Below are positions 5,268 to 22,868 of a DNA stretch of 23,358 nt, one piece after another. Within the stretch, counting starts at the first letter, position 1, and the number at the start of each line of letters is the position of its first letter. The notes beneath the pieces were generated by a model. It made no database searches and was not told where the DNA came from. It was given only the letters and a program-made list of their open reading frames with translations. A program made the translations under genes and the position numbers. Origin of the DNA: a virus; the IMG/VR virus record IMGVR_UViG_3300038528_000007, positions 1 through 23,358 of that record, one strand, 5' to 3'.

Positions 5268-5734
5268 AAGCCGCGCACTACGTATGTTATCGAGTTGCGC
5301 AAGGTGCCGGTGTCGATCAACACCTGGCTGCTGCCCTTGTCATCCTTCGTTGCCTGCGTAATGTCCGGCCACTCACCATAGCCCCGCGTTGTAAATGCGC
5401 CCTTGCTGATATTAACGGCAACCGTTCCAATCAAGCCTAGCGCCTGCTCTGCTTTCTTGCCGCGCTGGAATACATCTTCAAACTGTTTGGCAATGGCTGT
5501 AGACAGTTCATTTCGCTTGGCCGTAAACGGCGTACGCAAAAATGACCGCCGTGGAACGCCAGCACCGTACTCATGCTGAGCGCCCACCGTGGCAACTGTC
5601 TGCCCATCGCCGTATACCTTGCCGCCCACTTCTTCAGCCGGTAAGCCTGCAGCAACATAGCCGCGCTTGGCTTTCTCAAGGTTCGCTAGGTAGTCACGGG
5701 TACGGGCTAGCATCTGTTCGGGTGTCAGCGTCAT
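5264..5734 (-). CDS. Neck protein, HK97 gp10-like / virion morphogenesis family
   Basis: This 156-residue protein begins with a Lys-rich helix (MTLTPEQMLARTRDYLANLEKA). It then has a segment with GAQHEYGAGVPRRSFLRTPF, in which 'HEYG' and 'P.RSFLR' match a motif seen in gp10-like and tail-completion proteins. It ends with LIDTGTLRNSITYVV, the classic 'L..TG.L..SI' ending of this family. These proteins help join head and tail. Four-base overlaps with both neighbours indicate coupled translation. Confidence 0.82.
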   Translation of the reverse strand: MTLTPEQMLARTRDYLANLEKAKRGYVAAGLPAEEVGGKVYGDGQTVATVGAQHEYGAGVPRRSFLRTPFTAKRNELSTAIAKQFEDVFQRGKKAEQALGLIGTVAVNISKGAFTTRGYGEWPDITQATKDDKGSSQVLIDTGTLRNSITYVVRGL

Positions 5735-6084
5735 ACGAACACCCCGCCCGCGCTACGCGACGTTAGCATCAGATACCTGGCCCCGTAACGTGTAGTCTGC
5801 AACCAGGACTTGCGCTCACTTGCCGGCGCAATGCCTTGACTGTAGGCAATTGACACGCTGCCGACTGATTTGGATTGCACAGATTTAATGTTACCGCTGC
5901 CCGGCAATGTCTCGCCAACCAATAAGTGTGCCAACAAGTTCAGCACAATTTCTTTATCACAAGCCGCGTCGTAACTGCCTCCGAAATAGCACGGCCATAT
6001 AGGCTCAAGAATCGGTAGGTATTGGTCCACCGTTGCAGTCTCGAACTCAGGAAAGCGTGCTTTAAAGTCGGCGGTTACTGTCAT
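5731..6084 (-). CDS. DUF4054 protein, head-tail connector
   Basis: This 117-residue protein starts MTVTADFKARFPEF, the usual opening of DUF4054 and similar head-closure proteins, and is largely helical, with an 'AHLLV' segment in the middle and a 'RYG.RYL.L' ending. These proteins are thought to bind the portal ring at the vertex. It is followed by the gp10-like gene with a four-base overlap and lies three bases after the small gene upstream. Confidence 0.85.
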   Translation of the reverse strand: MTVTADFKARFPEFETATVDQYLPILEPIWPCYFGGSYDAACDKEIVLNLLAHLLVGETLPGSGNIKSVQSKSVGSVSIAYSQGIAPASERKSWLQTTRYGARYLMLTSRSAGGVFV

Positions 6085-6087
6085 GCG

Positions 6088-6324
6088 TTAGACCCATTCC
6101 AGAAAGCCACAATCGACAGCATTGGCAGCACGCTTGCTTGCTAGGTTGTCAGCCTTGTCTGAGTCCGTGAGCTTGTATGTTACGCCAGGGTGCACGATCT
6201 TACCGTACAACACTTGGCGCTGACTGGACACGTTCTTGAGCATAGCCGGAGCCACGGGTTCCGCAATCTGTGCCGGTTCCTGCTTGCTGCCCTTTGGCCT
6301 GCCTCGTTGCTTAAAGTCTTGCAT
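6088..6324 (-). CDS. Small protein with N-terminal AT-hook-like motif
   Basis: This 78-residue protein begins MQDFKQRGRPKGSKQEPAQ. The RGRPKGSK stretch (about residues 7-14) matches the core of an AT-hook, a short peptide that binds the minor groove of AT-rich DNA. The rest (about 30-78) is a small predicted beta/helix domain ending in DCGFLEWV that I do not recognise by function. GAGG lies about 8 bases before the ATG. It lies between the major capsid and connector genes, so it may be a head protein that touches DNA; this is inference. Confidence 0.75.
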   Translation of the reverse strand: MQDFKQRGRPKGSKQEPAQIAEPVAPAMLKNVSSQRQVLYGKIVHPGVTYKLTDSDKADNLASKRAANAVDCGFLEWV

Positions 6325-6341
6325 GTGTCACCTCAAGTAAT

Positions 6342-6365
6342 GCCAGCCCTGTGTGAGCGGCTGGC
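6342..6365 (-). other. Hairpin after the major capsid gene
   Basis: A perfect seven-base inverted repeat (GCCAGCC and GGCTGGC, 10-base loop) lies 7 bases after the end of the major capsid gene. Read in the direction of transcription it is followed by ATTACTT rather than a run of T, so it looks like a weak terminator or an mRNA-stabilising hairpin that could raise capsid expression over the genes behind it. Confidence 0.5.
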
Positions 6366-6372
6366 CTCTGCG

Positions 6373-7353
6373 TTACAAACCCCGTAGAAACCGAGCTGCG
6401 TCGTCTTCGATAACGTCCAAGCCTGCAACGCCGAAGAACGACTCGACATAGTACTTAAAGCCGCGCTGTGATACAGCAGACACGTTCAGCGGCACCGGCA
6501 AACGGAACTGAATAGCCCGGCGGTTAGAACTAAACGCTACGGTTACAGACGCGCCCCCGGCAATGCTGACTGCTTTGGTGGTAAGGCCGAAAGTGACAGC
6601 CGGGAAGTTGGCTTGTAACGCCCGCAGCACTGTCATTTCTGAGCCTGCACTGTTCAGGATCTTAGTGCTGGCTACGTTGTAAACCGTGTTAGGCATTACT
6701 ACCCGGTCAGCCATGTAGGTATCCACGTTCAACACGCCCGCAAACTGCGAGGTTAGCAGCGTGGCGATTTCGTCGTACAGCTCTTGGCCGGTTGAGTTAA
6801 TCGCAGTTGCCGCTGCGTTGGCTGTTGCGAACCCGCCGTAGTTGAGCAGGCCGGTGGTCTTCTGGGTGCCGTCAGTGCGCGTTTGGCCGAGGTAGCCAAT
6901 AGTGTCTAGCTCTCGGTTGTACAGCTCAGCGTGACCCTCAAAAAAGCGGCTTGGCAGGTTGATGTTCTCAAGCTCTGCTTGCTTCAACTCAATTTCAGAA
7001 TAGTCGGACTCGGCCTCTTTGGTGAACACCGGGATGCTGTCATCTTCACCTTCCAAAGTGATTTTGCCAGACGTGTTGGTGTTGGTGCCGGACTCACGAA
7101 ACCCGCCAACGGTCTTGAGCTTTAGCTTACGAATTGAGGTAGAGAAGCCGCCTTCGTTGTTCAGGGTGATGCCCTGTTGTAGAAATGTCAGGCCCGCAAA
7201 TTCCTGCGTGAAGATCTCGGCGCTAACGTGCTCCAAGTTCCGCGCCAAGATAATGCCGCCCTCGTCTTTGAAGTGCTTCTTTGCATACACGGCGGCAGCG
7301 TCAAAGGACTTGATCCCGTAGAGGGATTGTACTCGCTTGATATCAGTCTTCAT
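6373..7353 (-). CDS. Major capsid protein, DUF2184 family
   Basis: This 326-residue protein resembles the DUF2184 major capsid family. It starts MKTDIKRVQSLYGIKSF and contains FTQEFAGLTFLQQ and ELEN.NLP..F.EGHAELYNRELDT segments typical of that family. Its C-terminal part is beta-rich (roughly 250-326), with RAIQFRLPVPLNVSAVSQRGF. The subunit forms the icosahedral shell. I start it at the ATG at 7353, which has a GGGG ribosome site 7 bases upstream, rather than an in-frame TTG two codons earlier. It follows the cement gene by 12 bases. Confidence 0.92.
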   Translation of the reverse strand: MKTDIKRVQSLYGIKSFDAAAVYAKKHFKDEGGIILARNLEHVSAEIFTQEFAGLTFLQQGITLNNEGGFSTSIRKLKLKTVGGFRESGTNTNTSGKITLEGEDDSIPVFTKEAESDYSEIELKQAELENINLPSRFFEGHAELYNRELDTIGYLGQTRTDGTQKTTGLLNYGGFATANAAATAINSTGQELYDEIATLLTSQFAGVLNVDTYMADRVVMPNTVYNVASTKILNSAGSEMTVLRALQANFPAVTFGLTTKAVSIAGGASVTVAFSSNRRAIQFRLPVPLNVSAVSQRGFKYYVESFFGVAGLDVIEDDAARFLRGL

Positions 7354-7365
7354 TATCAATCCCCT

Positions 7366-7848
7366 TTAAAGGTACTTGTTGATGCGAACGAGCCACACCA
7401 GCGCTGATTTTTGTTCCCAGAATACAACGTCGCCAGCGCTTACAATGCCGCCAGTAACAGCAGCCTCGGTGGCCTTGCCAGCGTCTGCGGTGCCGTCGTT
7501 AATGTATTGCACGGGGTCGTAGCGTGAAGGGTCGGCAGTGCCGGTAACGGTGACGGTTGCAAAGCCAAAGTTAATAATCTCTGCTACCGAGTCAATAGCG
7601 GTGCCGGTGGTGCTGTATACGCCAGTACCGATCTCGCCGGTAATCTTGCGCTTGACAATGCCAACGACTACCGGAGTGCCAGAGCCGTCCATGTTGTCAA
7701 CGCGGCCAGAGTCAAACTTTGCAAAGCGGCCCTCAATTAAGCCGTTCTCAAAAGTCTCAAAGCTTGATACGTTGTAGGGGCTTGCGGTAATGACTTCGCC
7801 CGCGCCCAGATCCGGGTTATCTTGGAGTACAGTGTTTGCAAAAGACAT
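7366..7848 (-). CDS. Structural cement / head decoration protein
   Basis: This 160-residue, nearly all beta, Gly/Thr/Val-rich protein starts MSFANTVLQDNPDLGAGEVI. It resembles the gp24-like structural cement proteins (DUF2190 neighbourhood) that bind the outside of the capsid and stabilise it. It sits between the DUF2213 protein and the major capsid gene, the usual cement position. GGGAG lies upstream of the ATG. Family recognition is moderate; gene order makes it likely. Confidence 0.78.
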   Translation of the reverse strand: MSFANTVLQDNPDLGAGEVITASPYNVSSFETFENGLIEGRFAKFDSGRVDNMDGSGTPVVVGIVKRKITGEIGTGVYSTTGTAIDSVAEIINFGFATVTVTGTADPSRYDPVQYINDGTADAGKATEAAVTGGIVSAGDVVFWEQKSALVWLVRINKYL

Positions 7849-7851
7849 GGG

Positions 7852-9009
7852 TTATTTCTCCCCCAAAGTGTCAGAGATACGAGACATCAAACCGGAATCG
7901 GCTTTAGTGTCACCAAATTGCGTATAGTCAGAACTTGCCTTACGCAGCAACTTAAACGCCACTGGCAGTTCCGAGTCTTCAAACTTGTCAGCGCTTTGTG
8001 TGGCCAGGGAGTCGCGCATAACAGTGTGTGCAGACTTGCCAACGAAATTATAATCCGCGTCTACAAAGTCGCGGGCCTTGTTGACAACTTCGGAGTACAA
8101 GCGGACCTGACCTTTAACCGCACTAGCAACGGCATCTTTAAACTGGGTGGAGTCGGCAAAGTTTTCTTTGCCGTTCATGTCTTTCATGTCCTTTTCTTCC
8201 ATGTCGGCGTCTTCCATGTCCTTATCCATGTCCTCCATGTCGACGTCTTCCATTTCCATGTCTTCATCTGCCACATCTTCTTCGGCAGGCATGATGTTTT
8301 GCTCTTTGGCGTAAGACATAATTTCCTGCATCGCCGGCATAAGCTTAACGAGCTGGTCAACAGGAACTTTACGGATAGCCTCGGGTAGACCAGTCGCAAT
8401 TTCTACGATCATGTCAAGGCTAACCGAGCCCTCGGCGTCGGTAAACGCCTTGTGTATCTTCTTCGGCTTCATGGTGTCACCCTCCAAGGGCTTGTGTGGT
8501 ATATCGGGTTTGCGGTCTAAGAAGCTGCACAGAGGACCACAACGGCCAGCGGGGACAGCGGCCAGGTGATGGGGTTGTATGTCAATCTGTTCAAAATCAA
8601 AGCGGCTGTGTGGCACAAGGTCTGCTTCATAGCCAAGAGATAATTGATGCTTGTCTTTTAAGAGGATTTGCAGCTCGTCACTTACAGCTAGCTTGTTCTG
8701 GACAGCGAGCCGGGAGTGTGTCGGCTCGTCTATCTGGTCAATGACAACAGACGACTCGACACGCGAACCAGATTCAACGGCAGGCCCATCCATGCTTACG
8801 TGGCCATCGGTCAGCGGTATGCCTGGCATAAGGTAGGCGGCGTTAGCAATAGTTGCCGGTGATCTGTAGACAGTAAACACTCGGTCAAGTGGCTCAAGGC
8901 CTAGCTCTGCACCAAGATACTCCAACACGCCGTCACGAATTGACACGGCAGTACGCGCTGTATCTGAGTAGACAGCTAGATCGGAAAATTGCTTGCGAAT
9001 CGTTGGCAT
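7852..9009 (-). CDS. DUF2213 prohead protease / scaffold-like protein
   Basis: This 385-residue protein matches the DUF2213 pattern: N-terminal MPTIRKQFSDLAVYSDTART, then GIPLTDGHVSMDGP (a conserved His region at about residue 70) and KDKHQLSLGYEADL (a conserved Ser region at about 120), which could be the catalytic His and Ser of a herpesvirus-like prohead protease. The C-terminal half is scaffold-like, with an acidic, Met-rich stretch (about 240-280) of repeated 'MED' units, and ends with helical segments. I prefer the ATG at 9009, with AAAGG 7 bases upstream, over an in-frame TTG at 9036. A strong promoter lies just upstream. The protease role is inferred. Confidence 0.82.
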   Translation of the reverse strand: MPTIRKQFSDLAVYSDTARTAVSIRDGVLEYLGAELGLEPLDRVFTVYRSPATIANAAYLMPGIPLTDGHVSMDGPAVESGSRVESSVVIDQIDEPTHSRLAVQNKLAVSDELQILLKDKHQLSLGYEADLVPHSRFDFEQIDIQPHHLAAVPAGRCGPLCSFLDRKPDIPHKPLEGDTMKPKKIHKAFTDAEGSVSLDMIVEIATGLPEAIRKVPVDQLVKLMPAMQEIMSYAKEQNIMPAEEDVADEDMEMEDVDMEDMDKDMEDADMEEKDMKDMNGKENFADSTQFKDAVASAVKGQVRLYSEVVNKARDFVDADYNFVGKSAHTVMRDSLATQSADKFEDSELPVAFKLLRKASSDYTQFGDTKADSGLMSRISDTLGEK

Positions 9010-9035
9010 ATAAAAGCCTTTAACTGGTTTACGCA

Positions 9036-9064
9036 ATTTTAATATGCTAAGGCTATGGTGTCAA
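9036..9064 (-). promoter_or_regulatory. Strong sigma70 promoter inside the late operon
   Basis: On the minus strand a perfect TTGACA (9059-9064) and TAAAAT (9036-9041) are 17 bases apart. Transcription would start about 20 bases before the ATG at 9009, leaving a short leader with an AAAGG ribosome site. It should boost protease/scaffold, cement and capsid genes apart from the upstream terminase genes. Confidence 0.65.
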
Positions 9065-9074
9065 ATTGATACGG

Positions 9075-9926
9075 TTATTGCTCCATCTCTGGAATAATTA
9101 GTTCATAATCGCAGCGACAATTGTATGACGTTCCAGGAAGTAAAAATTGACCGTTTATTTTTGCGCCGGTCGCTAAATCAAACTCCACTCCCTCAAGTGC
9201 AAAGTGACTAGGCTTTGCATTTGGGTATTTTCCACTAGGGTTGCCCCGGACCCTTTCATCTTTTGCGCTGCGCCAGATTGCTTTTGTAATGCCAAGGTTC
9301 TGCGCCCGCGCCTTTGTGGTCAGGCTGTTAAACGTCGCAATCTGTGTACGTGCAACCATCTTGGCGTGATTCTTGCGCTTTTCTACCATGTCATCAAACT
9401 GGCTTAGTATTTCCGGCAGACCCTTGCCTTCTGCCATAAGCCGCAGCGTGTTGCTGGTCCACATTTGTAGGGTATCGTCGCGGGTCTTCTTTACCCACTG
9501 CTGTGTTTCTGCCTGAAACGCATTTATCTGGAAAGTAAGCCCCTCGGTGGCCTCCAGCTCATCGCGACTGATTCCTATGGCGTTAGACGCACGCCGGTAG
9601 AACTCTGACTGGTTGCGCCGGTTGACCTTGCCGGTGTACTTGTTGGTCATCTTGTCAAGACGCTTGCCGTCAAACTGTTTTAGCAGCTTACGTTGCACAC
9701 GTGCGGCCATGGCTAGAAACACTTTGGCAAAGTTGCCTTCTTGTTTAGCGTCCGCAAACTTGGCAATCGTATCCTGATTCAGCTCTTTGAATATCTGCGT
9801 CCGCCACCGCTGCGCCATCTGGTCAACCATGTATTCTATGGCGTTACCGAATTGGCGGATCTCCGACTTAGGTGGCTCGGGTGACTTTACTTTCGCGCCG
9901 TTTGGACAGCAGACTTCACGTTTCAT
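9075..9926 (-). CDS. Minor head protein, Mu F-like
   Basis: This 283-residue protein has a C-terminal Mu gpF-like domain (about 190-283): RTQIATFNSLTTKARAQNLG, then TKAIWRSAKDERVRGNPSGK and a final SYNCRCDYELIIPE, which matches the usual 'NCRC' ending. The N-terminal part is helical and Lys/Gln-rich. MuF proteins act in head morphogenesis and DNA ejection, at the portal. It begins inside the 3' end of the portal gene (11-base overlap), with GGGGGG upstream of the ATG. Confidence 0.85.
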   Translation of the reverse strand: MKREVCCPNGAKVKSPEPPKSEIRQFGNAIEYMVDQMAQRWRTQIFKELNQDTIAKFADAKQEGNFAKVFLAMAARVQRKLLKQFDGKRLDKMTNKYTGKVNRRNQSEFYRRASNAIGISRDELEATEGLTFQINAFQAETQQWVKKTRDDTLQMWTSNTLRLMAEGKGLPEILSQFDDMVEKRKNHAKMVARTQIATFNSLTTKARAQNLGITKAIWRSAKDERVRGNPSGKYPNAKPSHFALEGVEFDLATGAKINGQFLLPGTSYNCRCDYELIIPEMEQ

Positions 9927-11175
9927 CGTCGCCCCCCATCAGTTCCTCTAGGCTCATGCCACCCTGCTCAGGCGTAGGCGCTTCGTCTTCGTCGGGCCTG
10001 CCAAACATCTGTTCAAACGGGTCATTCTCAGTCACGCCGTTGTCAATGAGGTACTTGTCGTAGTCAAGGCCCATCTGCCATAGCACAAGAGCGTTTTTAA
10101 TAACCTCAGTCTCTTGGCCAATGCGGTCTTTGTCAGTCTGGCCCTGGTTCTCTTTGAACGACACGCGCCCGCGCCCGTGCATAGCCATAAGCCGGTTAAT
10201 CTTGTCCAGCAGATACTCTGATTGCAGCGATTTGATGGTCTGCATGTCCACCTGCCTGTCGCCCTCGCCACTGCCGTTCAATCCTTTAGGTGGCTCACCT
10301 ACTAGGGTAGACAGTGAAAGCCCGGTCACCATAGCCAAGCGGCGCAAGGTAATCATGTCTGACTCTGCCAGGTTGCTCAGGGTTTGCTGTACCGTAACAA
10401 CCTCGTCTTCTTTGTCGATGACACCAGCGCCGTATGACGACCTCAGATCCTCTAAGCCAGCAAAGTACCGAAGCAGATCATCCTCTTTTTTGTCGTTGAG
10501 CAGGTCTTTAAACCCGGCGACTTTGTAAAAGACTGTGGATGACTTCTCAAGAATGGCCGGCACGGCACGCTGTACAATTTGATCGCTCACCAGCTCGTTG
10601 CGGATAAGCTCAAATTCAGATATGCCGCCAAAGAAATATTCAGGCGCGTCAAGCTCAACCGGCTGCACGTAAGTCATATCGACCACGCGGCTCGGGTGGA
10701 TTGTAAAGCCGCGTATGCTGTAGAACTTTGGCTTGTAGTAATTGGGGCTATTTAGGTTGTACTCGACGCTCTGGATGTACACCATGTCGCCGCTAAACAC
10801 CAGGCATCGAACGTTCGTGTAATCGTCAATCACTGGCAGGGGTGAGCTAAGGTCGGCGCCAGGCTCTTGCGTGACGATGATCCCACGGCCAAACGCCAGC
10901 ATGAATTTGCAGGTGTTTTTGACGTGTTGCTGAAGGCGTGTCTCGTAATAGTCTTTGTCTATTGTGTTCTCAAATTGCAAAGTTTCGTTCAACGCAATGC
11001 CGGACTTGATGCGAATGATCTTGCTACCCACGCCCGTCTTATAGATCGCCCGCAGCTCGTCAGAGTCTACCCGCGTGCTGGTCATGCGGTTGTTGTTGTG
11101 CACGTTGCGCCGGTTCGCCAGCTTGTTAGTTAGGCTGGTGATGCCGTCTGCGAATAGCTTTGGGAAACTGACCAT
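9916..11175 (-). CDS. Portal protein, DUF1073 family
   Basis: This 419-residue protein resembles the DUF1073 (Phage_portal_3) portal family: GVGSKIIRIKSGIALNETLQ near the N-terminus, a KFYSIRGFTIHPSRVVDMTY segment in the middle, and GLSLSTLVGEPPKGLNGSGE (about 290-310), a conserved loop of this group. The acidic tail ends in EELMGGDDET. Portals form the dodecameric ring for DNA packaging and exit. Its ATG overlaps the stop of the large terminase by one base (TAATG), a translational coupling pattern. Confidence 0.9.
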   Translation of the reverse strand: MVSFPKLFADGITSLTNKLANRRNVHNNNRMTSTRVDSDELRAIYKTGVGSKIIRIKSGIALNETLQFENTIDKDYYETRLQQHVKNTCKFMLAFGRGIIVTQEPGADLSSPLPVIDDYTNVRCLVFSGDMVYIQSVEYNLNSPNYYKPKFYSIRGFTIHPSRVVDMTYVQPVELDAPEYFFGGISEFELIRNELVSDQIVQRAVPAILEKSSTVFYKVAGFKDLLNDKKEDDLLRYFAGLEDLRSSYGAGVIDKEDEVVTVQQTLSNLAESDMITLRRLAMVTGLSLSTLVGEPPKGLNGSGEGDRQVDMQTIKSLQSEYLLDKINRLMAMHGRGRVSFKENQGQTDKDRIGQETEVIKNALVLWQMGLDYDKYLIDNGVTENDPFEQMFGRPDEDEAPTPEQGGMSLEELMGGDDET

Positions 11176-12416
11176 TACAATATGTTCCCGTAGTTGGTAA
11201 TTTTGCCATTCATAATAGGCTCTAGCGCGTATCTTATCGCATCTATTGCGTGGTTGTCAGCGTCTACGATTTTAGGAAGTATATCACCTGAATAGCGGTC
11301 CACCTTGTAGCTGTACAGATTAAACTCTTTAAAAGTGTTTTTGCAGCGCGGATGAATGATGACTTTGCCAAACGATCTGATGAATTCTATGCCGTCCTGC
11401 ACTGACCCCGGACCCTTCTTACACGACACTATACGCCTTATACCATGACGCTGGAGGTAGCTAATTGACTCGGGCCGGGCGTTGTCGGCGCGTACCGTGT
11501 GGCTTTCTACGCCTGGTAAAAGGTCAATCATAACTTTGCTTGTGTCGTCGATTTCAAGGTGCTGCACATAAAGTTCGTGCTCAATGTACAAATCACCGTT
11601 GTTTGCCCAGCACTTGACGCCGGCTGTTGGGTCTTGCGAGAACCCGAAGTCCAGCCCGAAGTAAGGGCCGTCCCATGTTTTTGTGGGCACAAACTCGCGC
11701 TGCACATACTTGTCGCTAAACACTTGGGCCTGTGAGCTTTCCCAGAATTGGCCCTCCCAGATGTGCGCGTATAGCGATGGGTCTAGTCTTTCCAGTGCGT
11801 CGAGGCGCTGCTCTTCTAGTATTTTGGAAAAGAACGGATTGTCTTGCCAATTAATTTCGACAATGTGCGACCGAGGCGGCGGCGTACTTAATTGAAATGT
11901 TTGCGCCACCCAACTGTTACGCTTTTTTGGGTTGTAAATAATCCATATTTCGGAGTTAGCAGCGCGTATTGTTGGCAGCAGATCCACCCAGCCCGCCGCC
12001 GGTATATCTTCCGCTTCCTCAACTACGCACAAATCCACCTGAGCAAGCGACTTTATAGAACCGATGTTGTGACGCAGGCCGCGAAAGATAAACTCTGTGC
12101 CGTTGCTGCGGTGCCGAAGGTAATCAACGCCGACGTCGTATTGCGTAGACAGCCAAGGGCAAGACTCAATAGCGTTCTTTAACTCGGCATGGAATGATTC
12201 TTTAATAGAGTTTTGCAGCTCACGAACGCACAAGATGCGCAGCGGGTCTATGGCGCCCCATATAGCGGCCATCTTTGCAGACGTGAACGATTTGCCAGAC
12301 CCTCGCCCGCCGTGCATTACACGGTATCTAAGGCTGCCTCTAGGCTCAGCAAAGAGTGGTATTAACTTGGGTGGAAGCTCAATGCTTAGGGTTGACAACG
12401 GGCGCAACCAGTTCAA
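11175..12416 (-). CDS. terL: Terminase large subunit
   Basis: This roughly 413-residue packaging motor has the ATPase and nuclease signatures. Walker A is HGGRGSGKS (about 35-43), Walker B is VDLCVVEEAED (about 127-137), and nuclease acids lie in GLDFGFSQDP (about 254), RADNARPESI (about 309) and DADNHAIDAIRYAL (about 385-398). It cuts and pumps phage DNA into the prohead. The start is uncertain: there is no ATG before the codon next to Walker A, only TTG codons at 12416, 12407 and 12398, and a stop lies just upstream in frame. The N-terminal SIELPPKLIP segment is normal for the family, so a TTG start is likely. Confidence 0.93.
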   Translation of the reverse strand: MNWLRPLSTLSIELPPKLIPLFAEPRGSLRYRVMHGGRGSGKSFTSAKMAAIWGAIDPLRILCVRELQNSIKESFHAELKNAIESCPWLSTQYDVGVDYLRHRSNGTEFIFRGLRHNIGSIKSLAQVDLCVVEEAEDIPAAGWVDLLPTIRAANSEIWIIYNPKKRNSWVAQTFQLSTPPPRSHIVEINWQDNPFFSKILEEQRLDALERLDPSLYAHIWEGQFWESSQAQVFSDKYVQREFVPTKTWDGPYFGLDFGFSQDPTAGVKCWANNGDLYIEHELYVQHLEIDDTSKVMIDLLPGVESHTVRADNARPESISYLQRHGIRRIVSCKKGPGSVQDGIEFIRSFGKVIIHPRCKNTFKEFNLYSYKVDRYSGDILPKIVDADNHAIDAIRYALEPIMNGKITNYGNIL

Positions 12417-12777
12417 TGCGGGTGGGGTTTGGCGTCATGCTGCCGTCAGGGCTTGTGTGTGACAGCTCCGACTTCTCGCTATAGCCATGATTGTGCAGTA
12501 TCAGCTTAGTGATAGCAGCGTTGAACGTGCCGTCAAGCCCACGGTTTACCGCTGTACGCTCCTGCATTGCGTCGATGTTCTCTAACGTGTGCAGAAATTC
12601 AGGGTAAAGTTTTTCCCATTCGTAGCTTACACGCTTTGACACGCCCAAGTAGCAGCACAGCCCAACACGGCTAGGGATAACGTCGCCGACCTCCTTGAAC
12701 TTATAAATATACTCGTCTGCCTGCTGTTGCAGGGCTTGAGTGTACTTTGTTGGCGCGCCTATCTTTGTGTTTTCCAT
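12379..12777 (-). CDS. terS: Terminase small subunit
   Basis: This 132-residue protein starts MENTKIGAPTKYTQALQQQA and has a helix-turn-helix-like centre (PSRVGLCCYLGVSKRVSYEW) followed by a long helix and the ILHNHGYSEKSE ending typical of small terminases. It would recognise the packaging site and work with the large subunit, whose gene overlaps its 3' end. The frame is open to a potential start at 13002, but the extra segment is unlike the family, so the ATG at 12777 is preferred. That ATG has no ribosome site but lies 6 bases after a perfect TATAAT, so the mRNA may be leaderless. Confidence 0.8.
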   Translation of the reverse strand: MENTKIGAPTKYTQALQQQADEYIYKFKEVGDVIPSRVGLCCYLGVSKRVSYEWEKLYPEFLHTLENIDAMQERTAVNRGLDGTFNAAITKLILHNHGYSEKSELSHTSPDGSMTPNPTRIELVAPVVNPKH

Positions 12778-15235: not shown

Positions 15236-15282
15236 AGATCATCCTTTTTCTTTGCCAATACTTTTTTGCTGGGCAGGTTCAT
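15232..15282 (-). CDS. Possible 16-residue micro-ORF between dnaB and the next gene
   Basis: The reading frame MNLPSKKVLAKKKDDL starts at an ATG overlapping the dnaB stop (ATGA) and stops at a TGA overlapping the next gene's GTG (GTGA). It therefore bridges exactly the gap between two genes. The peptide is Lys-rich. It may serve to hand ribosomes on from dnaB to the next gene, or encode a tiny peptide. Chance cannot be excluded for 16 codons. Confidence 0.4.
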   Translation of the reverse strand: MNLPSKKVLAKKKDDL

Positions 15283-16661
15283 AGCGACATCCCCCGCTTC
15301 TTACTGTTGCCTTTTTGCGCTTCAGCCCACGCTATCGCCTCTTCGGCTGCCTTTCTTGCGCCAAAATCAATCTTGTGATCTGCCGCAACGAACCGGGAAT
15401 ACTGGCCTTCAAAGTGCAAAGCTTCGCTGCCTCGCTCACCCATGCGGATCTTTCCGAAGATGATTTCAGTCAGTGAGTCAGGGGCGTCGGGGTTCGTGTA
15501 ATACCCTTCACGGAACGGGAAGATGATGATGTCTGCGTCTTGCTCAATAGCTCCAGATTCGCGCAGGTCGCTCATCATGGGGCGCTTATCGGTGCGGGAC
15601 TCGACGCCGCGGCTAAGCTGCGACAGGGCGATCACTGGACACTTGAACTCTTTGGCCAGCGACTTGAGCCCGCCTGATATTTTGGTGATTTCCTGAGTGC
15701 GGTTTTCTGCCTTGCCCTGCATAAGCTGCAAGTAATCCACCATGATTAACCCGAGGCTTCCGGCCTTGCGCTTAATTGCGTGAGCCCTGGCTCGCATCTG
15801 GGCAACGGTTAGGCCGCCGCGGTCGTCGATGTGCAAGCTGGCGCTCTGGATTAGTTTGTTGGCCGCGGTGAACCGGGCCCACTCGCCCTCATCGTCCGAG
15901 AGTGTTCCCCGGCGCAATGAATTTAGGTTTATCTTGCCCAGCGAGGCGGTCATTTTTTCAAGTATCTGCGGGGCGCTCATTTCCATTGAGAACACCAGCG
16001 TCTGAATCCCGTCACGGATGCAGTTCTGTTCAACGATATTCATGGCAAACGTACTTTTTCCCATGGATGGCCGGCCAGCGACGATAATCAAATCGCCTTC
16101 GCGCATTCCGTTGATCCGGTCGTCAAGGTGCGGATAGCCAGTAGACAGGCCGATAAGCTCGCCATTCGATTCGTGGCGGCGCTGCATTTCCAGCAGGAAC
16201 TCTTTGGACGCTCGGCGCATATCCCACAGCGAGTCGTCGGCCTTGTTGGTTTTGACGCCCTCAAATTCGGAAAGAATGCGCTCGTGTGCGGTTTGCGGGT
16301 CTTTCTCGTCGTCCAAAATAACCCGCGCTGTCAGGGTGGCGCTGTACAGGTCACGGCGCAGGCCGCGATTGCTGAGAATGTCGCAGTAGGCTGACAGGTT
16401 CTCGATGCTGGGCTTGTTGCTCTGCTCAACGATCTGGGCCAGCAGCTCGCCGGCGTTTTCCATGCCTTCGGCTTCAAGGCGCTCGGCAACGGTAATCAGA
16501 TCCACCGGCTTGTTTTCTTGCAGCAGGTCGTAAGCGGTTTGGGCAAAGTGACGCAAGTGGCCGCTGAAATCACCGGGCTTCACTTTTTCGAATACCTGGG
16601 CGGCGTAATCGGCGCGAAGGGTCAGGCTTAGAACGGCGGCTTCGTAAACGTCGAGGTTCAT
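15279..16661 (-). CDS. dnaB: Replicative DNA helicase, DnaB family
   Basis: This 460-residue protein has both DnaB parts: an N-terminal helical domain (about 1-110, starting MNLDVYEAAVLSLTLRADYA) and a RecA-like ATPase domain. Walker A is GRPSMGKS (196-203), Walker B is LGLIMVDY (303-310), and the H4-like segment ALSQLSRGVESR...DLRESGAIEQDAD lies at 345-377. It unwinds DNA at the phage fork. It overlaps the O-like gene by four bases, so the phage carries its own helicase, as P22 does with gp12, instead of a lambda P-type loader. GGGGTG lies before the ATG. Confidence 0.95.
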   Translation of the reverse strand: MNLDVYEAAVLSLTLRADYAAQVFEKVKPGDFSGHLRHFAQTAYDLLQENKPVDLITVAERLEAEGMENAGELLAQIVEQSNKPSIENLSAYCDILSNRGLRRDLYSATLTARVILDDEKDPQTAHERILSEFEGVKTNKADDSLWDMRRASKEFLLEMQRRHESNGELIGLSTGYPHLDDRINGMREGDLIIVAGRPSMGKSTFAMNIVEQNCIRDGIQTLVFSMEMSAPQILEKMTASLGKINLNSLRRGTLSDDEGEWARFTAANKLIQSASLHIDDRGGLTVAQMRARAHAIKRKAGSLGLIMVDYLQLMQGKAENRTQEITKISGGLKSLAKEFKCPVIALSQLSRGVESRTDKRPMMSDLRESGAIEQDADIIIFPFREGYYTNPDAPDSLTEIIFGKIRMGERGSEALHFEGQYSRFVAADHKIDFGARKAAEEAIAWAEAQKGNSKKRGMSL

Positions 16662-17548
16662 GCGTCACCCCGTTCAAGCTCGTCTTCGTCGTGATACTTG
16701 CACTCAATAACTTTGGCAAAGTTGTCGGCCTTCACGAGCCAGTCCAGGCTGGCAACGAATACTTTGCGGCCCGGCTGCGGTTCAGCGCGTCCTGTAAGAA
16801 ATTTGCTTTTAGCGACAAACTCAAAATATCTGCGCCAGAATCCGAGGTCGTTGCACTGCGTTGATTTAACCTTGGAGTTCCAGCGCTGACGCATGTGGCT
16901 TTTGCGGCTGTCGTTGATGATGATGCACTCGGGGTTATTGGTTAGCAGCTCGTGATACAGGTCTACAATTTTCTGGTATGGGCAGGGGGTTTTCTTGAAT
17001 GCTTTCGTTGCAGCTTCAGGTTGCTCGTTCTCGCTCGGCGAGGACATGTAATACGGAGTATTACTTTTAGTTTTTCTTTTGTCTTTGGTGTGACCAGAAT
17101 TACTGTTCATTGAATGACCAGAATTACTGTTCACTGAACACAATTCCGGATTACTGGTCACTCGCTCTTTTATAAGCCCTTTTGTGGCCTTCTTTTGGAA
17201 CGTCCAGTCGCCTATTTGGGTGTTCATTTTTACCGCAGAACGACTGCCGCCTTCGCGGATAATGACGCCCATTTCGATCAGATCATTCAGTGCTGACGAA
17301 CACACCTGGCGGCGCATCCCTGTGATAGTTGCAAGCTGGCTTGCGGCTATCCTGTCCTTACCCTTACTCCATCCATAGGTCATGCGGATAACAGCCCATA
17401 CAACGCGCTGCTGAACCGATGTTATAGGGTGACTTGCCAGGCCCTCAGCCAGCGCATTAACTACCCGGCAATAGCCGTCCTTGAGCGCTGGCTTATCCCC
17501 TGACATACGCCCCTGCCTTGCGGTTTCAATTGATGCCACGTTATTCAT
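16658..17548 (-). CDS. Replication initiator, lambda O-like
   Basis: This 296-residue protein resembles the Phage_rep_O family. The N-terminal domain (about 30-115) has the winged-helix pattern VVWAVIRMTYGWSKGKDRIAA...ATITGMRRQVCSSALNDLIEMGVIIREG. A linker (about 129-170) is encoded by the iteron and A-rich origin DNA and is low in complexity (NSNSGHSMNSNSGHTK). The C-terminal domain (about 190-296) should contact the helicase. O binds iterons within its own gene and recruits DnaB. AGGGG lies 6 bases before the ATG, and both neighbours overlap it by four bases. Confidence 0.9.
   Translation of the reverse strand: MNNVASIETARQGRMSGDKPALKDGYCRVVNALAEGLASHPITSVQQRVVWAVIRMTYGWSKGKDRIAASQLATITGMRRQVCSSALNDLIEMGVIIREGGSRSAVKMNTQIGDWTFQKKATKGLIKERVTSNPELCSVNSNSGHSMNSNSGHTKDKRKTKSNTPYYMSSPSENEQPEAATKAFKKTPCPYQKIVDLYHELLTNNPECIIINDSRKSHMRQRWNSKVKSTQCNDLGFWRRYFEFVAKSKFLTGRAEPQPGRKVFVASLDWLVKADNFAKVIECKYHDEDELERGDA
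17048..17160. other. Probable phage replication origin inside the O-like gene
   Basis: Three directly repeated sites on the minus strand, TGA(A/C)CAGTAAT, begin at 17160, 17133 and 17109 (spacing 27 and 24 bases). The last two are 19 bases, TGAACAGTAATTCTGGTCA, an imperfect palindrome. An A-rich stretch (17065-17090, minus strand) follows, then a perfect hairpin palindrome, GTAATAC-GGA-GTATTAC (17048-17064). Iterons, A-rich DNA and a palindrome, all inside O, repeat the design of the lambda origin. Confidence 0.8.
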
Positions 17549-17763
17549 GCAAGCCCCTGTTTCAACGCCTTTTCACGCAGCTCGGATTCGGTGTAAAGCT
17601 CGTTCCGGTCATTCACCAGACCAACAAGCTTGGCCAGGCTGCCAACTACGTCGCCGCTTTTAATCTGAGCCATGCAGCGGTCAATATGACATTGCAGAAA
17701 ATAAATTTTTAAGCGGCGCAACCGGTCGGAAATTATGATGTCTTGCGTAATAAGTTCTCTCAT
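17545..17763 (-). CDS. Small unknown protein at the cII position
   Basis: This 72-residue protein starts MRELITQDIIISDRLRRLKI and is helical and basic, without a clear domain. It lies between cro and the O-like gene, where lambda has cII, but does not look like CII. GGAG lies 10 bases before the ATG and its stop overlaps the O start by four bases (ATGA). A regulatory or replication-accessory role is possible; function unknown. Confidence 0.7.
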   Translation of the reverse strand: MRELITQDIIISDRLRRLKIYFLQCHIDRCMAQIKSGDVVGSLAKLVGLVNDRNELYTESELREKALKQGLA

Positions 17764-17834: not shown

Positions 17835-18035
17835 TTAGACCGCAACCTTAATATCTTCGATCTTTAGCTTTCCCCTCGTAATTTTTTGAATCTGGTACTG
17901 CCTGAGCATTGGTACAGCGTCGTTTCTGATCCATACAGCTATTGCCGGCTGGCTTACGATAACACCTTTCTTGGTCAGTGCTCTTGACGTTGCCGCCTGG
18001 CCTCCAAAATATTTAACTACTTCATGCGCTTTCAT
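17835..18035 (-). CDS. cro: Cro-like repressor
   Basis: This 66-residue protein starts MKAHEVVKYFGGQAATSRAL and fits the small P22/lambda-type Cro pattern, with a helix-turn-helix about residues 12-37 (QAATSRALTKKGVIVSQPAIAVW). It ends LKIEDIKVAV. GGAGG lies 6 bases before the ATG at 18035; a TTG start four codons earlier is less likely because it contains that site. It is the first gene of the leftward early operon and likely represses the divergent promoters. The gene order cro, small gene, O matches lambda. Confidence 0.82.
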   Translation of the reverse strand: MKAHEVVKYFGGQAATSRALTKKGVIVSQPAIAVWIRNDAVPMLRQYQIQKITRGKLKIEDIKVAV

Positions 18036-18058
18036 GGCGTCCTCCAATGGATACCGAC

Positions 18059-18087
18059 ACTATAAATTAAAGCTTCACACGTTGCAA
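18059..18087 (-). promoter_or_regulatory. Leftward early promoter (PR-like)
   Basis: On the minus strand TTGCAA (18082-18087) is followed after 17 bases by TATAGT (18059-18064). It is placed to transcribe cro and the replication genes. Its -10 box is identical to that of the rightward promoter. Confidence 0.6.
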
Positions 18088-18119
18088 TAAATAAAATTAT
18101 CTAAAATGCAAAACTATCG

Positions 18120-18148
18120 TTGACCTCATGGATAACTTCGCTTATAGT
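18120..18148 (+). promoter_or_regulatory. Rightward early promoter (PL-like)
   Basis: TTGACC (18120-18125) and TATAGT (18143-18148) are separated by exactly 17 bases. It would transcribe the recombination operon starting at 18184. The -10 box lies inside the palindrome at 18128-18156, so a bound repressor would block polymerase. Confidence 0.65.
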
Positions 18149-18156
18149 TTATCCAT
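18128..18156. promoter_or_regulatory. Palindromic operator candidate over the rightward promoter
   Basis: Perfect eight-base arms, ATGGATAA and TTATCCAT, are separated by 13 bases and overlap the promoter spacer and -10 box. Further GGATA-type half-sites lie near 18048 and 18170, one inside the leader of each divergent transcript. The likely ligand is the Cro-like protein encoded next to it. Confidence 0.55.
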
Positions 18157-18183
18157 CAAATCACAAAACGGATAGACACCATC

Positions 18184-18414
18184 ATGAGCACATATAACGG
18201 TAACAGCCCAGCAATGCCGCAAGAGTGGCAGCCTTATGTAGAAGCTGCGCCTGTGGGCCTCACCGAGAGAGAGTATTTTGAAGCGCAAGCAATGCAAGGG
18301 CTTCTGTCTAACCCGGCATTAATTAACTCAGATAGCGTTGAAGTGTTTGAGATAATTGCGAATATTGCAAGGCAAGGTGCAGAAGCTCTTTTGAATAATT
18401 CTAATCAACCCTAA
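18184..18414 (+). CDS. Small phage protein, first gene of the rightward operon
   Basis: This 76-residue protein carries the GLTEREYFEAQAMQGLLSNPA segment (about residues 25-45), which resembles small early proteins of many phages, of unknown role. The rest is helical and acidic. It follows the rightward promoter by 35 bases. No strong ribosome site is visible (GGAT only, 12 bases before the ATG). Confidence 0.75.
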   Translation: MSTYNGNSPAMPQEWQPYVEAAPVGLTEREYFEAQAMQGLLSNPALINSDSVEVFEIIANIARQGAEALLNNSNQP

Positions 18415-18435: not shown

Positions 18436-18633
18436 ATGGATAACGACATTAAATACAGAGTGACCATTCTATGCCCTTGGCACGAAACCGGAACGTCTGG
18501 ATTTCTGACTGCTTTGGATGCTTATGAGTACGTAGCGCAAATGGATGACTTGACCCGTGAGGATGTGATCCGCATAACAATAGAGTCTTACAGCCAAAAA
18601 GAATTGGCCAATCGGATGCCGGAGGTAGTATGA
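18436..18633 (+). CDS. Small hypothetical protein
   Basis: This 65-residue acidic protein starts MDNDIKYRVTILCPWHETGT. It has no recognised domain. An excellent AAGGAG site lies upstream of the ATG, and its stop overlaps the next gene's start by four bases (ATGA), so it is translated together with the annealing protein. Confidence 0.75.
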   Translation: MDNDIKYRVTILCPWHETGTSGFLTALDAYEYVAQMDDLTREDVIRITIESYSQKELANRMPEVV

Positions 18634-19343
18634 CAAACACATCAATTTGGGATCGGGTGCAATCCACTGACCCAAAGTTCACAAAAACCTATAAAGGCAC
18701 TGGCGGGTTTGCTGGCACCGCGATAAATGCTATCTACCTTGTCAAAAAGGCCACCGAGCAATTTGGGCCTCTAGGATCTGGGTGGGGCTATGAAATTGTA
18801 GAAGAACGCTTTGATGCTGGCGGACCTATCTCCGACAAAGAAGGCGCTTATCTTTGCGACGCTAAGATTCACACAATCCGGTTGCGGCTCTGGTATATGC
18901 AGGAAGGCGAGCGCAGAGAGCTGGATCACTACGGCCATACGCCTTATATTTTCACCAATAAGTATGGCGTTCAGACCGACATGGAGGCCCCTAAGAAGTC
19001 CCTGACAGACGCAATTAAAAAGTGTCTATCCATGCTGGGCTTCGGCGCTGACATCCACCTGGGCCTGTATGACGACTTCGAGTACGTGCAGGAAGCTCAG
19101 AGCGAATCCGCAATGACACACGCAGAGGACAAGGCCGCCGAAGCGGTAAGGCAGAAGGAAGAATACGCCCTGTTCCTTGACAAACACGTTGACTACATCG
19201 AAACCAGCAAGAGCTTGGGGGAGCTTGAAAAGCTGTTTACGGCATCCGTGAGGCGGGCACAAAGCAAAAAAGACGACCGTGGCATCATCCGGTTGACAAA
19301 GGCAAAGGACAGCCAAAAACTCATACTGCAAGGGGAAAAATAA
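18630..19343 (+). CDS. Single-strand annealing recombinase, ERF/Rad52-like
   Basis: This 237-residue protein has an N-terminal annealing domain (about 1-150) with TDPKFTKTYKGTGGFAGTAIN, GPLGSGWGYEIVEERF and TDAIKKCLSMLGFGADIHLGLYDD, a typical Rad52/ERF-superfamily pattern. The C-terminal third is helical and Lys-rich. It would anneal complementary strands during phage recombination and genome circularisation. Its partners follow: a Gp157-like protein and an SSB. The exact subfamily is uncertain. Confidence 0.82.
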   Translation: MTNTSIWDRVQSTDPKFTKTYKGTGGFAGTAINAIYLVKKATEQFGPLGSGWGYEIVEERFDAGGPISDKEGAYLCDAKIHTIRLRLWYMQEGERRELDHYGHTPYIFTNKYGVQTDMEAPKKSLTDAIKKCLSMLGFGADIHLGLYDDFEYVQEAQSESAMTHAEDKAAEAVRQKEEYALFLDKHVDYIETSKSLGELEKLFTASVRRAQSKKDDRGIIRLTKAKDSQKLILQGEK

Positions 19344-19344
19344 C

Positions 19345-19851
19345 ATGGCCAGGTTATACGAAATTTCAGGCCAGTACGCGGATCTGCAAAAAATTGCAGA
19401 GTCCTCGGACGATCAAGACGCTGATATGATGGAGGCAATAACCAACAGCCTTGGTGATATTACTGAGTGCTTTAACGAGAAAGCCGAAGCCCTTATGCAC
19501 GTTGTCAGAAACATGGAGGCAGAAACCGGCCCGATCGAAAAAGAGATTGCAAGGCTACAAGATCGGAAAAAGGCGATTAACAACCGGCAAGATTCGTTGC
19601 GTGATTACCTGCGCGACAACATGGAAAGGACCGGCGTGAAAAAGATATCATGCCCGCTGTTTACGATTACGTGCGCTGCTGGCCGCGAAGTCTCAATAAT
19701 TAACAACGAGGATCTCATTCCAGACGACTACATGGCCGTAACAACCAGCATCAAGCCCGATAAGGCAGCCTTGGCCAAGGCATTGAAATCTGGCATTGAA
19801 GTGCCTGGAGCTTCCCTAGAGCGTACAAAATCATCCATCCGCATTAAGTAA
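19345..19851 (+). CDS. Siphovirus Gp157-like protein
   Basis: This 168-residue protein resembles the Gp157 family (PF05565): a long N-terminal helical, coiled-coil region (about 1-100, with EIARLQDRKKAINNRQDSLR) and a C-terminal domain with IPDDYMAVTTSIKPDKAALAKALKSG. The family occurs beside phage recombination genes and has been linked to phage resistance in Streptococcus, but its action is unknown. AGGGG lies about 9 bases before the ATG. Confidence 0.88.
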   Translation: MARLYEISGQYADLQKIAESSDDQDADMMEAITNSLGDITECFNEKAEALMHVVRNMEAETGPIEKEIARLQDRKKAINNRQDSLRDYLRDNMERTGVKKISCPLFTITCAAGREVSIINNEDLIPDDYMAVTTSIKPDKAALAKALKSGIEVPGASLERTKSSIRIK

Positions 19852-21523: not shown

Positions 21524-21551
21524 AAAGCCCCGCGTTGGGGCTTTATTTTAT
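21524..21551. terminator. Bidirectional terminator
   Basis: A perfect eight-pair stem (AAAGCCCC and GGGGCTTT, five-base loop) is followed rightward by ATTTTATT. Leftward the same hairpin follows the stop of the helix-turn-helix gene at 21543. The two convergent transcripts share it. Confidence 0.75.
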
Positions 21552-21782
21552 TACGCGGTTTGCAACTTCCTGTATATCGACATTCTTGTACCAACGAGGC
21601 AGACCCGCCAAGTCAACCAGCGCAGACTGGGCCTTCTGGAATCTTTCGGCAGTAGGGTGCCGGTTGTTGGTCTTCCACACGCTAAGAGTGTTGGCGCCAA
21701 GCCCAGATGCTTTCTGGAGAGTGCCCTGTTGAATGCCACAGTAATGTGCCAGCGCCAGCAGAAGATAGACCTTCAATCTCAT
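21543..21782 (-). CDS. Small helix-turn-helix regulator
   Basis: This 79-residue protein starts MRLKVYLLLALAHYCGIQQG. Residues about 17-50 (QQGTLQKASGLGANTLSVWKTNNRHPTA) fit a helix-turn-helix of the XRE/Cro-like kind. The rest lacks a dimerisation or peptidase domain, so it is not a full CI. AAGGA lies 8 bases before the ATG. It is alone on the minus strand among rightward genes, and the region upstream has a divergent promoter and an inverted repeat, so it probably controls itself and the next rightward genes. Confidence 0.75.
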   Translation of the reverse strand: MRLKVYLLLALAHYCGIQQGTLQKASGLGANTLSVWKTNNRHPTAERFQKAQSALVDLAGLPRWYKNVDIQEVANRVIK

Positions 21783-21795
21783 AATTTATTCCTTT

Positions 21796-21836
21796 TTGTG
21801 TTTACAGTTAATCACTATGGGTATATGGTAACACAA
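21796..21836. promoter_or_regulatory. Inverted repeat between divergent genes
   Basis: TTGTGTT (21796-21802) and AACACAA (21830-21836) are seven-base perfect arms, 27 bases apart, flanking the rightward -35 and -10 boxes. They may be two operators for the adjacent helix-turn-helix protein. Confidence 0.4.
21801..21829 (+). promoter_or_regulatory. Promoter of the third rightward unit
   Basis: TTTACA (21801-21806) and TATGGT (21824-21829) are 17 bases apart. Like the promoter at 20230 it carries TGTTTACA at the -35 region. It should transcribe the genes from 21857 onward. Confidence 0.45.
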
Positions 21837-21856
21837 CACTAAGGAGAAAATGAAAC

Positions 21857-22054
21857 ATGACAAACATACAACCAGTACCCGCAATCAGCATTCTTGCCGG
21901 CGTCATCTTTATCGCTCTGATCTTAGGCGCTACAGATGCCAACGATGACTTGGCAGGCAAGCAGGCCAACTACTGCGAGATGCGCGGCATCTATGAGCAA
22001 AGCGGCGGCGAGTATGGCTGGCCGAGAATGGACGGATATGGAGAGTGCAAATGA
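21857..22054 (+). CDS. Small membrane protein
   Basis: This 65-residue protein has a hydrophobic stretch (residues 9-25, AISILAGVIFIALILGA) that looks like a single membrane anchor, followed by an outward-type segment with YCEMRGIYEQSGGEYGWPRMDGYGEC. The 'YC.M...Y..SGGE.GWP...G.C' pattern occurs in small proteins of other phages; function unknown. AAGGAG lies upstream. Its stop overlaps the next ATG by four bases. Confidence 0.75.
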   Translation: MTNIQPVPAISILAGVIFIALILGATDANDDLAGKQANYCEMRGIYEQSGGEYGWPRMDGYGECK

Positions 22055-22530
22055 ACGAACAAAATAGCAAAAACCTTTACCTCCCCACTGGCGATGAAAT
22101 AGAAGCGGCACGGGACAATCTGGCACAGACTGGCGTGTACTTGGAGAAGGGAGGGTATTTGTCCAGCAATGGCGACGGCGTTCGGGCATGCTACCGGTTT
22201 TTGGCATTCCAGAAACGCATTAAGACTAAGCCACGGTGGACTACCGCAAGAAAGGGTTTGGTTGAGCGGTGGGCTGGATTCTATGTCAGCAGAGACGATT
22301 TTGTTACAGCGGCGCACATGCTGGGGATTGAAGGCAGTTATCTTGATTACAAACTGTCGGTGAAGATGCTGCCGGTACCACATGATGGACTGGCTTGTTT
22401 TGGGTTGCACCGTTGTTATTTTGAACTGAATAGTTTTGTCGTCGAACGCGATAAGCCCCTTTTTGATTCAGCATGGCGCGATGCCGTCATATCCATTTTG
22501 AAAAAACATAGTAAAAAGGAAGAAAAATAA
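22051..22530 (+). CDS. Hypothetical protein
   Basis: This 159-residue basic protein starts MNEQNSKNLYLPTGDEIEAA and contains segments such as GVRACYRFLAFQKRIKTKPR and WAGFYVSRDDFVTAAHMLGI. I recognise no domain. I use the ATG at 22051, which overlaps the previous stop (ATGA) and has GGAGAG upstream, rather than a GTG two codons earlier. The last codons are Lys-rich. Confidence 0.75.
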   Translation: MNEQNSKNLYLPTGDEIEAARDNLAQTGVYLEKGGYLSSNGDGVRACYRFLAFQKRIKTKPRWTTARKGLVERWAGFYVSRDDFVTAAHMLGIEGSYLDYKLSVKMLPVPHDGLACFGLHRCYFELNSFVVERDKPLFDSAWRDAVISILKKHSKKEEK

Positions 22531-22868
22531 TGACTGATACAAGGTTTACTCCCGGCAGTTGGCATTGGCGCGAAGACAAATGGAATGGCGGATGGTCTGG
22601 CCTTTACTCAGACGACGACACGACAGTGCTAGTGCCTCAAAGCTGCAATGACGGCGATGACGGTGCCGCGTGGTTTGCGACGGTTGATGACGCTGGCGAA
22701 GAAGGGTTGACCGATGCTGACCGGGATTTGATCGCCGCAGCCCCTGAGCTTTATGCGGCACTAGACCTTGCACTGTCTCACATGAGTGAGCCTGACTGCG
22801 TTATCTGGAGAGATATTCAGTCACGAGCCAAGTCGGCACTAGCCAAGGCCACAGGAGAATGTAAATGA
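22530..22868 (+). CDS. Conserved phage hypothetical protein
   Basis: This 112-residue acidic protein starts MTDTRFTPGSWHWREDKWNG and contains LTDADRDLIAAAPELYAALD (about 70-90), a pattern widespread in small phage proteins ('ADA.LIAAAPELY.AL') whose function is not known. Start and previous stop overlap by one base (TAATG). A helical C-terminus follows. Confidence 0.8.
   Translation: MTDTRFTPGSWHWREDKWNGGWSGLYSDDDTTVLVPQSCNDGDDGAAWFATVDDAGEEGLTDADRDLIAAAPELYAALDLALSHMSEPDCVIWRDIQSRAKSALAKATGECK

Follow-up and report, generated by a model that had tools for sequence, protein, structure and literature searches.

The immunity regions of phages lambda and P22 are among the known systems closest to the locus reported here: in them, divergent early promoters drive a replication operon headed by cro on one side and recombination genes on the other. 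Pseudomonas phage AH02 (MZ501271), in which a single P22-family Cro gene diverges from a Rad52-like/Gam-like operon, has been described as lytic (PMC8567786). Vibrio phage VvAW1 (JQ801337) is a P22-like podovirus that forms turbid plaques; it is thought to be temperate and has been proposed to be a plasmid prophage (PMC3558961). SA97, which has neither a cI-like nor a cro-like repressor, does not form lysogens (PMC4632378). A search limited to open-licence papers returned no description of a junction controlled by Cro only as a class. Here, we describe a divergent early junction with a single cro gene, which we read, with a probability of roughly 70%, as the early control region of a virulent phage under Cro-only control and without a lysogeny branch.

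Gene layout around the divergent junction

The window, meaning the whole stretch of DNA analysed (23,358 bp), is the entire IMG/VR virus record G000, which is probably a fragment of a viral genome. Its leftward late block encodes tail tube, sheath, capsid, portal and terminase proteins, and NinG is encoded as well; late genes were assigned partly through synteny with Pseudomonas phage vB_PcuM_KLEP17-4 (OM654375), which has the closest terminase in GenBank (63% identity) and shares the myovirus block. A leftward replication block with a small regulator, cro, at its head comprises a 72-aa ORF with no assigned function (17545-17763), a replication protein O-like gene (16658-17548; Pfam Phage_rep_O, E 1e-23) and a DnaB-like replicative helicase (15279-16661; Pfam DnaB_C, E 9e-90), all on the minus strand. 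On the plus strand, the rightward block opens with two small ORFs without assigned function, a phrog_2201-like gene of 76 aa (18184-18414) and a conserved ORF of 65 aa (18436-18633). These are followed by a Rad52-like single-strand annealing protein (18630-19343; phrog_7838, E 1e-80, with a weak Rad52_Rad22 match) and a Gp157/Mu Gam-like end-protection protein (19345-19851; Pfam Sipho_Gp157, E 8e-44; phrog_253). The family of the annealing protein is named "exonuclease" in PHROG, and the copy of one relative is annotated as RAD52-like. The position of the 76-aa gene varies among relatives (L056; L055; L002:3877-4086), as if it behaved like a mobile cassette.

A nucleotide search with the early region gave no match among GenBank phages, RepO peptide patterns retrieved no viral contig, and the terminase search of bacterial genomes yielded only relatives at 53-60%.

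The divergent promoters and Cro

Two promoter-like sites were identified between the operons. The leftward, PR-like site (TTGCAA-17-TATAGT, 18059-18087, minus strand; -35 box 18087-18082, -10 box 18064-18059) precedes cro and the replication genes, while the rightward, PL-like site (TTGACC-17-TATAGT, 18120-18148, plus strand; -35 box 18120-18125, -10 box 18143-18148) precedes the recombination operon. The two diverging -35 boxes are separated by 32 bp. When both strands of the window were scanned at every position with a sigma-70 weight matrix, the leftward site ranked fourth and the rightward site sixth, and the pair at 18059-18148 was the only divergent pair of equal strength with -35 boxes at most 80 bp apart. 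Dinucleotide shuffling of the window produced a divergent pair this strong in 2 of 100 cases, and none of 150 shuffles of the 152-bp junction reached the pair score; chance promoters were rejected on these grounds. Both pairs of boxes would, on this sequence evidence, direct transcription starts. An overlapping, mirror-image promoter geometry was unsupported at this junction (p 0.4).

The interval between cro and the first rightward gene (18036-18183, 148 bp) contains no ORF able to encode CI, so that a CI hidden inside the junction is ruled out. The original prediction of back-to-back PR-like and PL-like promoters 32 bases apart, with no cI gene between them, was thus borne out on both counts.

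The cro gene (17835-18035, minus strand) encodes a 66-aa member of the P22 Cro family (Pfam P22_Cro, PF14549, E 4e-14), with a score of 52.5 bits against a curated cut-off of 30.2. Furthermore, a profile built from Cro and ten homologues (11 sequences) matched the P22 Cro structure 1RZS at 1.7e-15. The ORF runs back to a TTG at 18047; the ATG at 18035 is the best-placed start, since a GGAGGA Shine-Dalgarno sequence lies just upstream and homologues start at the same methionine. The AF2 model contains four helices with a mean pLDDT of only 66, indicating low confidence. Compared with its homologues, the protein has a five-residue insertion in the HTH, and its binding specificity therefore cannot be guessed.

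Search for CI and integrase in the window and its relatives

No hits to integrase (PF00589), serine recombinase (PF00239), S24 peptidase (PF00717), the CI HTH family (Phage_CI_repr, PF07022) or ParA-type ATPase (PF13614) were obtained in the window, which is a partial genome. Since a fragment alone cannot show that CI or integrase is missing, relatives were used, traced through the recombination genes (L002-L004) or through an antisense HTH gene of the right arm (L042-L048), and these led to G011. The two ends of this 44-kb contig overlap at a period of 38,775 bp, corresponding to a genome of about 38.8 kb; the overlapping copies differ within roughly their first kilobase and match exactly beyond it, and the contig was accordingly taken to be near-complete. 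Across 5730-12449 of the window, a stretch of packaging and capsid genes, its identity to the window is 91%, and by synteny the part missing from the window consists of tail, baseplate, fibre and lysis genes. G011 retains the right arm with its antisense HTH gene and has one small regulator at its divergent junction. It differs from the window in that the regulator is another HTH protein of 56 aa, the early genes are replaced and the promoters overlap face to face. As a separate observation, a late structural ORF of the window (2655-4118, minus strand) contains tandem repeats of the unit type SFPLIDTSSGTSF, and repeats of this type are also present in the duplicated ends of G011.

None of G011 (over its entire 44-kb record), KLEP17-4, AH02, PB15 and VvAW1 gave a hit to integrase, serine recombinase, S24 peptidase or ParA-type ATPase, while the same search detected the positive controls YA3, K242 and PseuP_222, in which CI lies beside cro. 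KLEP17-4, AH02 and PB15 are complete genomes, each with one Cro-type gene at its divergent junction. The window, these three phages and G011 all have one small HTH regulator where the early operons diverge. Among 25 IMG/VR contigs carrying Cro homologues, an S24 CI was identified in only one (L027), divergent from and adjoining its cro; most of these contigs are short, so the count speaks to the neighbourhood of cro and not to whole genomes. By plain ORF calls, the first divergent genes were early DNA-metabolism or accessory genes, not CI, in at least 18 of the 25. The layout is uncommon but not new, as several complete phages lacking integrase and CI have it.

Other arrangements were also observed in the wider set. 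A 232-aa ORF (L060:6250-6948, plus strand, contig G012) combines a complete P22-type Cro domain with HNH_3 endonuclease and AP2 domains, a Cro-homing endonuclease-like fusion heading a replication operon. Genes for a 60-aa HTH-like protein, a replication protein and a DnaB-like protein in L004:3960-6201 share a strand with the recombination genes, an inversion of the replication module compared with the window. At 22052-22221 of G008 (L063), a divergent junction with a replication gene has no recognisable regulator between the operons.

Lysogeny, a carrier state or a lytic cycle

The phage is most likely strictly lytic, as judged from its gene content and that of its relatives, and would be unable to lysogenise. 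The promoters, the palindrome described below, the Cro family, the gene order and the layout shared with complete integrase-less relatives, on which this reading draws, are all features of the sequence itself. The original prediction also considered Cro the only local regulator and the phage possibly virulent. The relatives without integrase or CI agree with this view, and the search of the window, G011, KLEP17-4, AH02, PB15 and VvAW1 found neither gene; the part of the prediction that left room for a repressor elsewhere still carries some weight, as the phage's own genome is partial. Moreover, the relatives exchange early modules with one another, and the absence of CI from them is therefore no proof of its absence here.

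A temperate phage with its repressor elsewhere is accordingly the first alternative to weigh. The repressor gene could lie in the third of the genome that the window does not cover. Alternatively, the repressor could be a 79-aa HTH protein whose gene runs antisense within a gap of the rightward operon (21543-21782, minus strand; HTH_3 match below threshold) and which would then act on either the early promoters or the genes of the right arm. This gene is present in relatives at full length, with 62-82% identity and in the same place and orientation, and a partial copy in L048 is 97% identical. Its upstream block is conserved in eight sequences, a feature that, together with the conservation of the gene, its good HTH model and the fragmentary state of the window, speaks for the alternative. 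The AF2 model (pLDDT 89) resembles restriction-modification controller proteins in a fold search (E about 0.1, TM about 0.65-0.7), and a PDB sequence search gave no match. A promoter-like site (TTTACA-17-TATGGT, 21801-21829, plus strand), ranking ninth in the window, lies between the HTH gene and the next rightward gene, and the region 21543-21856 has the appearance of a second divergent regulatory locus within the rightward operon. The most likely targets of the antisense protein are its own gene and the genes of the right arm, and it may have a role in lysogeny. Several points speak against a repressor of the early junction: neither an S24 nor any other oligomerisation domain is seen in the 79-aa protein, the conserved block is confined to the surroundings of its own gene, and the window contains the palindrome at 18128-18156 only once. 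In addition, the records containing this gene, including the near-complete G011, have no integrase, and G011 synteny leaves tail, baseplate and lysis genes for the missing part. We therefore consider a repressor elsewhere unlikely.

It is also improbable that the lone Cro-type protein is itself the repressor that maintains a carrier state in which the phage persists unintegrated, either plasmid-like or as a pseudolysogen. Small Cro proteins are not known to hold lysogeny on their own, which counts against this explanation, and no ParA-type partition ATPase was found in the window or its relatives. VvAW1, with a lone small HTH gene at a similar junction, no integrase and turbid plaques, offers a precedent for it (PMC3558961), but AH02, which combines this layout with a P22-family Cro, has been described as a lytic phage (PMC8567786).

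The palindrome and a proposed early circuit

A palindrome, ATGGATAA-N13-TTATCCAT, spans the rightward -10 box and start site (18128-18156) and is the presumed operator. It occurs once in the window, and a match with at most three mismatches was found in 4 of 100 shuffles; shuffling of the junction only gave p of about 0.03. The palindrome is therefore modestly beyond chance (p about 0.03-0.04). A third copy of the half-site, ATGGATA (18047-18053), is found where the leftward transcript is expected to begin, and its role there would be regulatory. The original claim of a single palindrome overlapping the rightward promoter consequently holds as regards its uniqueness and its coverage of the -10 box, and requires amendment for the additional half-site near the cro start. 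The exact operator sequence is absent from all viral contigs searched, and a similar palindrome in L002 is within chance expectation (p 0.46).

The arms are 21 bp apart from centre to centre, equivalent to two helical turns. In lambda or P22, the site of one Cro dimer is narrower than this, so that a single-dimer operator at 18128-18156 is not obvious; the spacing suggests two Cro dimers or an unusual dimer. Cro is the presumed ligand of the palindrome. That the palindrome is instead a host-regulator site or a chance feature, with Cro acting solely on its own promoter, would fit the modest excess over chance, the HTH insertion that leaves the specificity of Cro unguessable and the half-site at the cro start, but appears quite improbable, given that coverage of the rightward -10 box and a half-site at the other start, within one 148-bp junction, fit a common regulator, and that the rightward promoter of G011, whose regulator is another protein, is also covered by a palindrome, though one of different sequence (p 0.03).

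Under Cro-only control, host sigma-70 polymerase would fire both back-to-back promoters simultaneously on infection. The leftward transcript would supply cro, repO and dnaB, and the rightward transcript the annealing, end-protection and accessory genes. Cro, as the first product of the leftward transcript, would accumulate, occupy 18128-18156 over the rightward promoter and probably also the half-site 18047-18053 at its own start, and turn down both early operons ahead of late expression. Without CI there would be no bistable choice, and the circuit would reduce to a single negative-feedback timer.

Promoter geometry among relatives

Back-to-back promoters were also found in KLEP17-4 (0 of 150 junction shuffles) and AH02 (p 0.007). 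Most relatives, unlike the window, use mirror-image overlapping promoters: such oppositely oriented pairs were observed in L002, G011, G010, PB15, VvAW1, L011 and L015, where none of 150 shuffles reached the score, and in L020 (0.007) and L025 (0.013), all of these geometry values being per junction, uncorrected for the number of junctions and obtained from contigs of which several are interrelated. Examples are located at L002:7875-7971, L058 (G011 22463-22569), L041:22215-22347 and L025:4449-4563. The palindrome arms of G011 and L025 consist of the -35 boxes. Symmetric bidirectional promoters, at which one polymerase excludes the other, are present in E. coli (PMC12825309).

These patterns allow a broader, tentative proposal, which we regard as possible but doubtful: that Cro-only early switches are a widespread and unrecognised control class in environmental phages. 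Such a class would consist of a compact cassette of one small HTH regulator and a palindromic divergent promoter, swapped as a unit between phages that are otherwise near-identical. It would occur in two geometries, one back-to-back, like that of the window, and the other overlapping and mirror-image; in the latter, the palindrome would serve as both promoters and as operator.

Comparison with known systems

If the Cro-only reading is correct, the junction offers a natural example of the remnant of a lambda-type switch without its lysogeny arm. It raises the questions of whether Cro alone can act as a timer, and whether the repressor was lost or never present. It also implies that an annotation as Cro or "Cro/CI family" is no evidence of a temperate phage, a point that matters for the lifestyle classification of environmental phages.

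Among the individual phages, KLEP17-4 resembles the window in its P22_Cro-domain gene at a divergent early junction, its strong back-to-back promoters and its lack of integrase and S24 CI. It differs in that its rightward operon opens with AAA-ATPase and polymerase genes instead of a Rad52-like gene, and in having 6 bp between the -35 boxes compared with 32 bp in the window. AH02 shares the back-to-back promoters and the lack of integrase and CI, whereas its virion genes are different and an inverted repeat lies between and over both -35 boxes. VvAW1 has a lone small HTH gene (HTH_26) at its divergent junction, a Rad52-like gene and no integrase, and it departs from the window as a podovirus that is possibly temperate. 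With respect to the lambdoid immunity region, the window has, from its sequence, divergent early promoters flanking the regulator region. In contrast to lambda and P22, no cI gene lies between the PL and PR equivalents, no integrase is seen in the window, and the triple operators (OR1-3, OL1-3) are replaced by one palindrome and one extra half-site.
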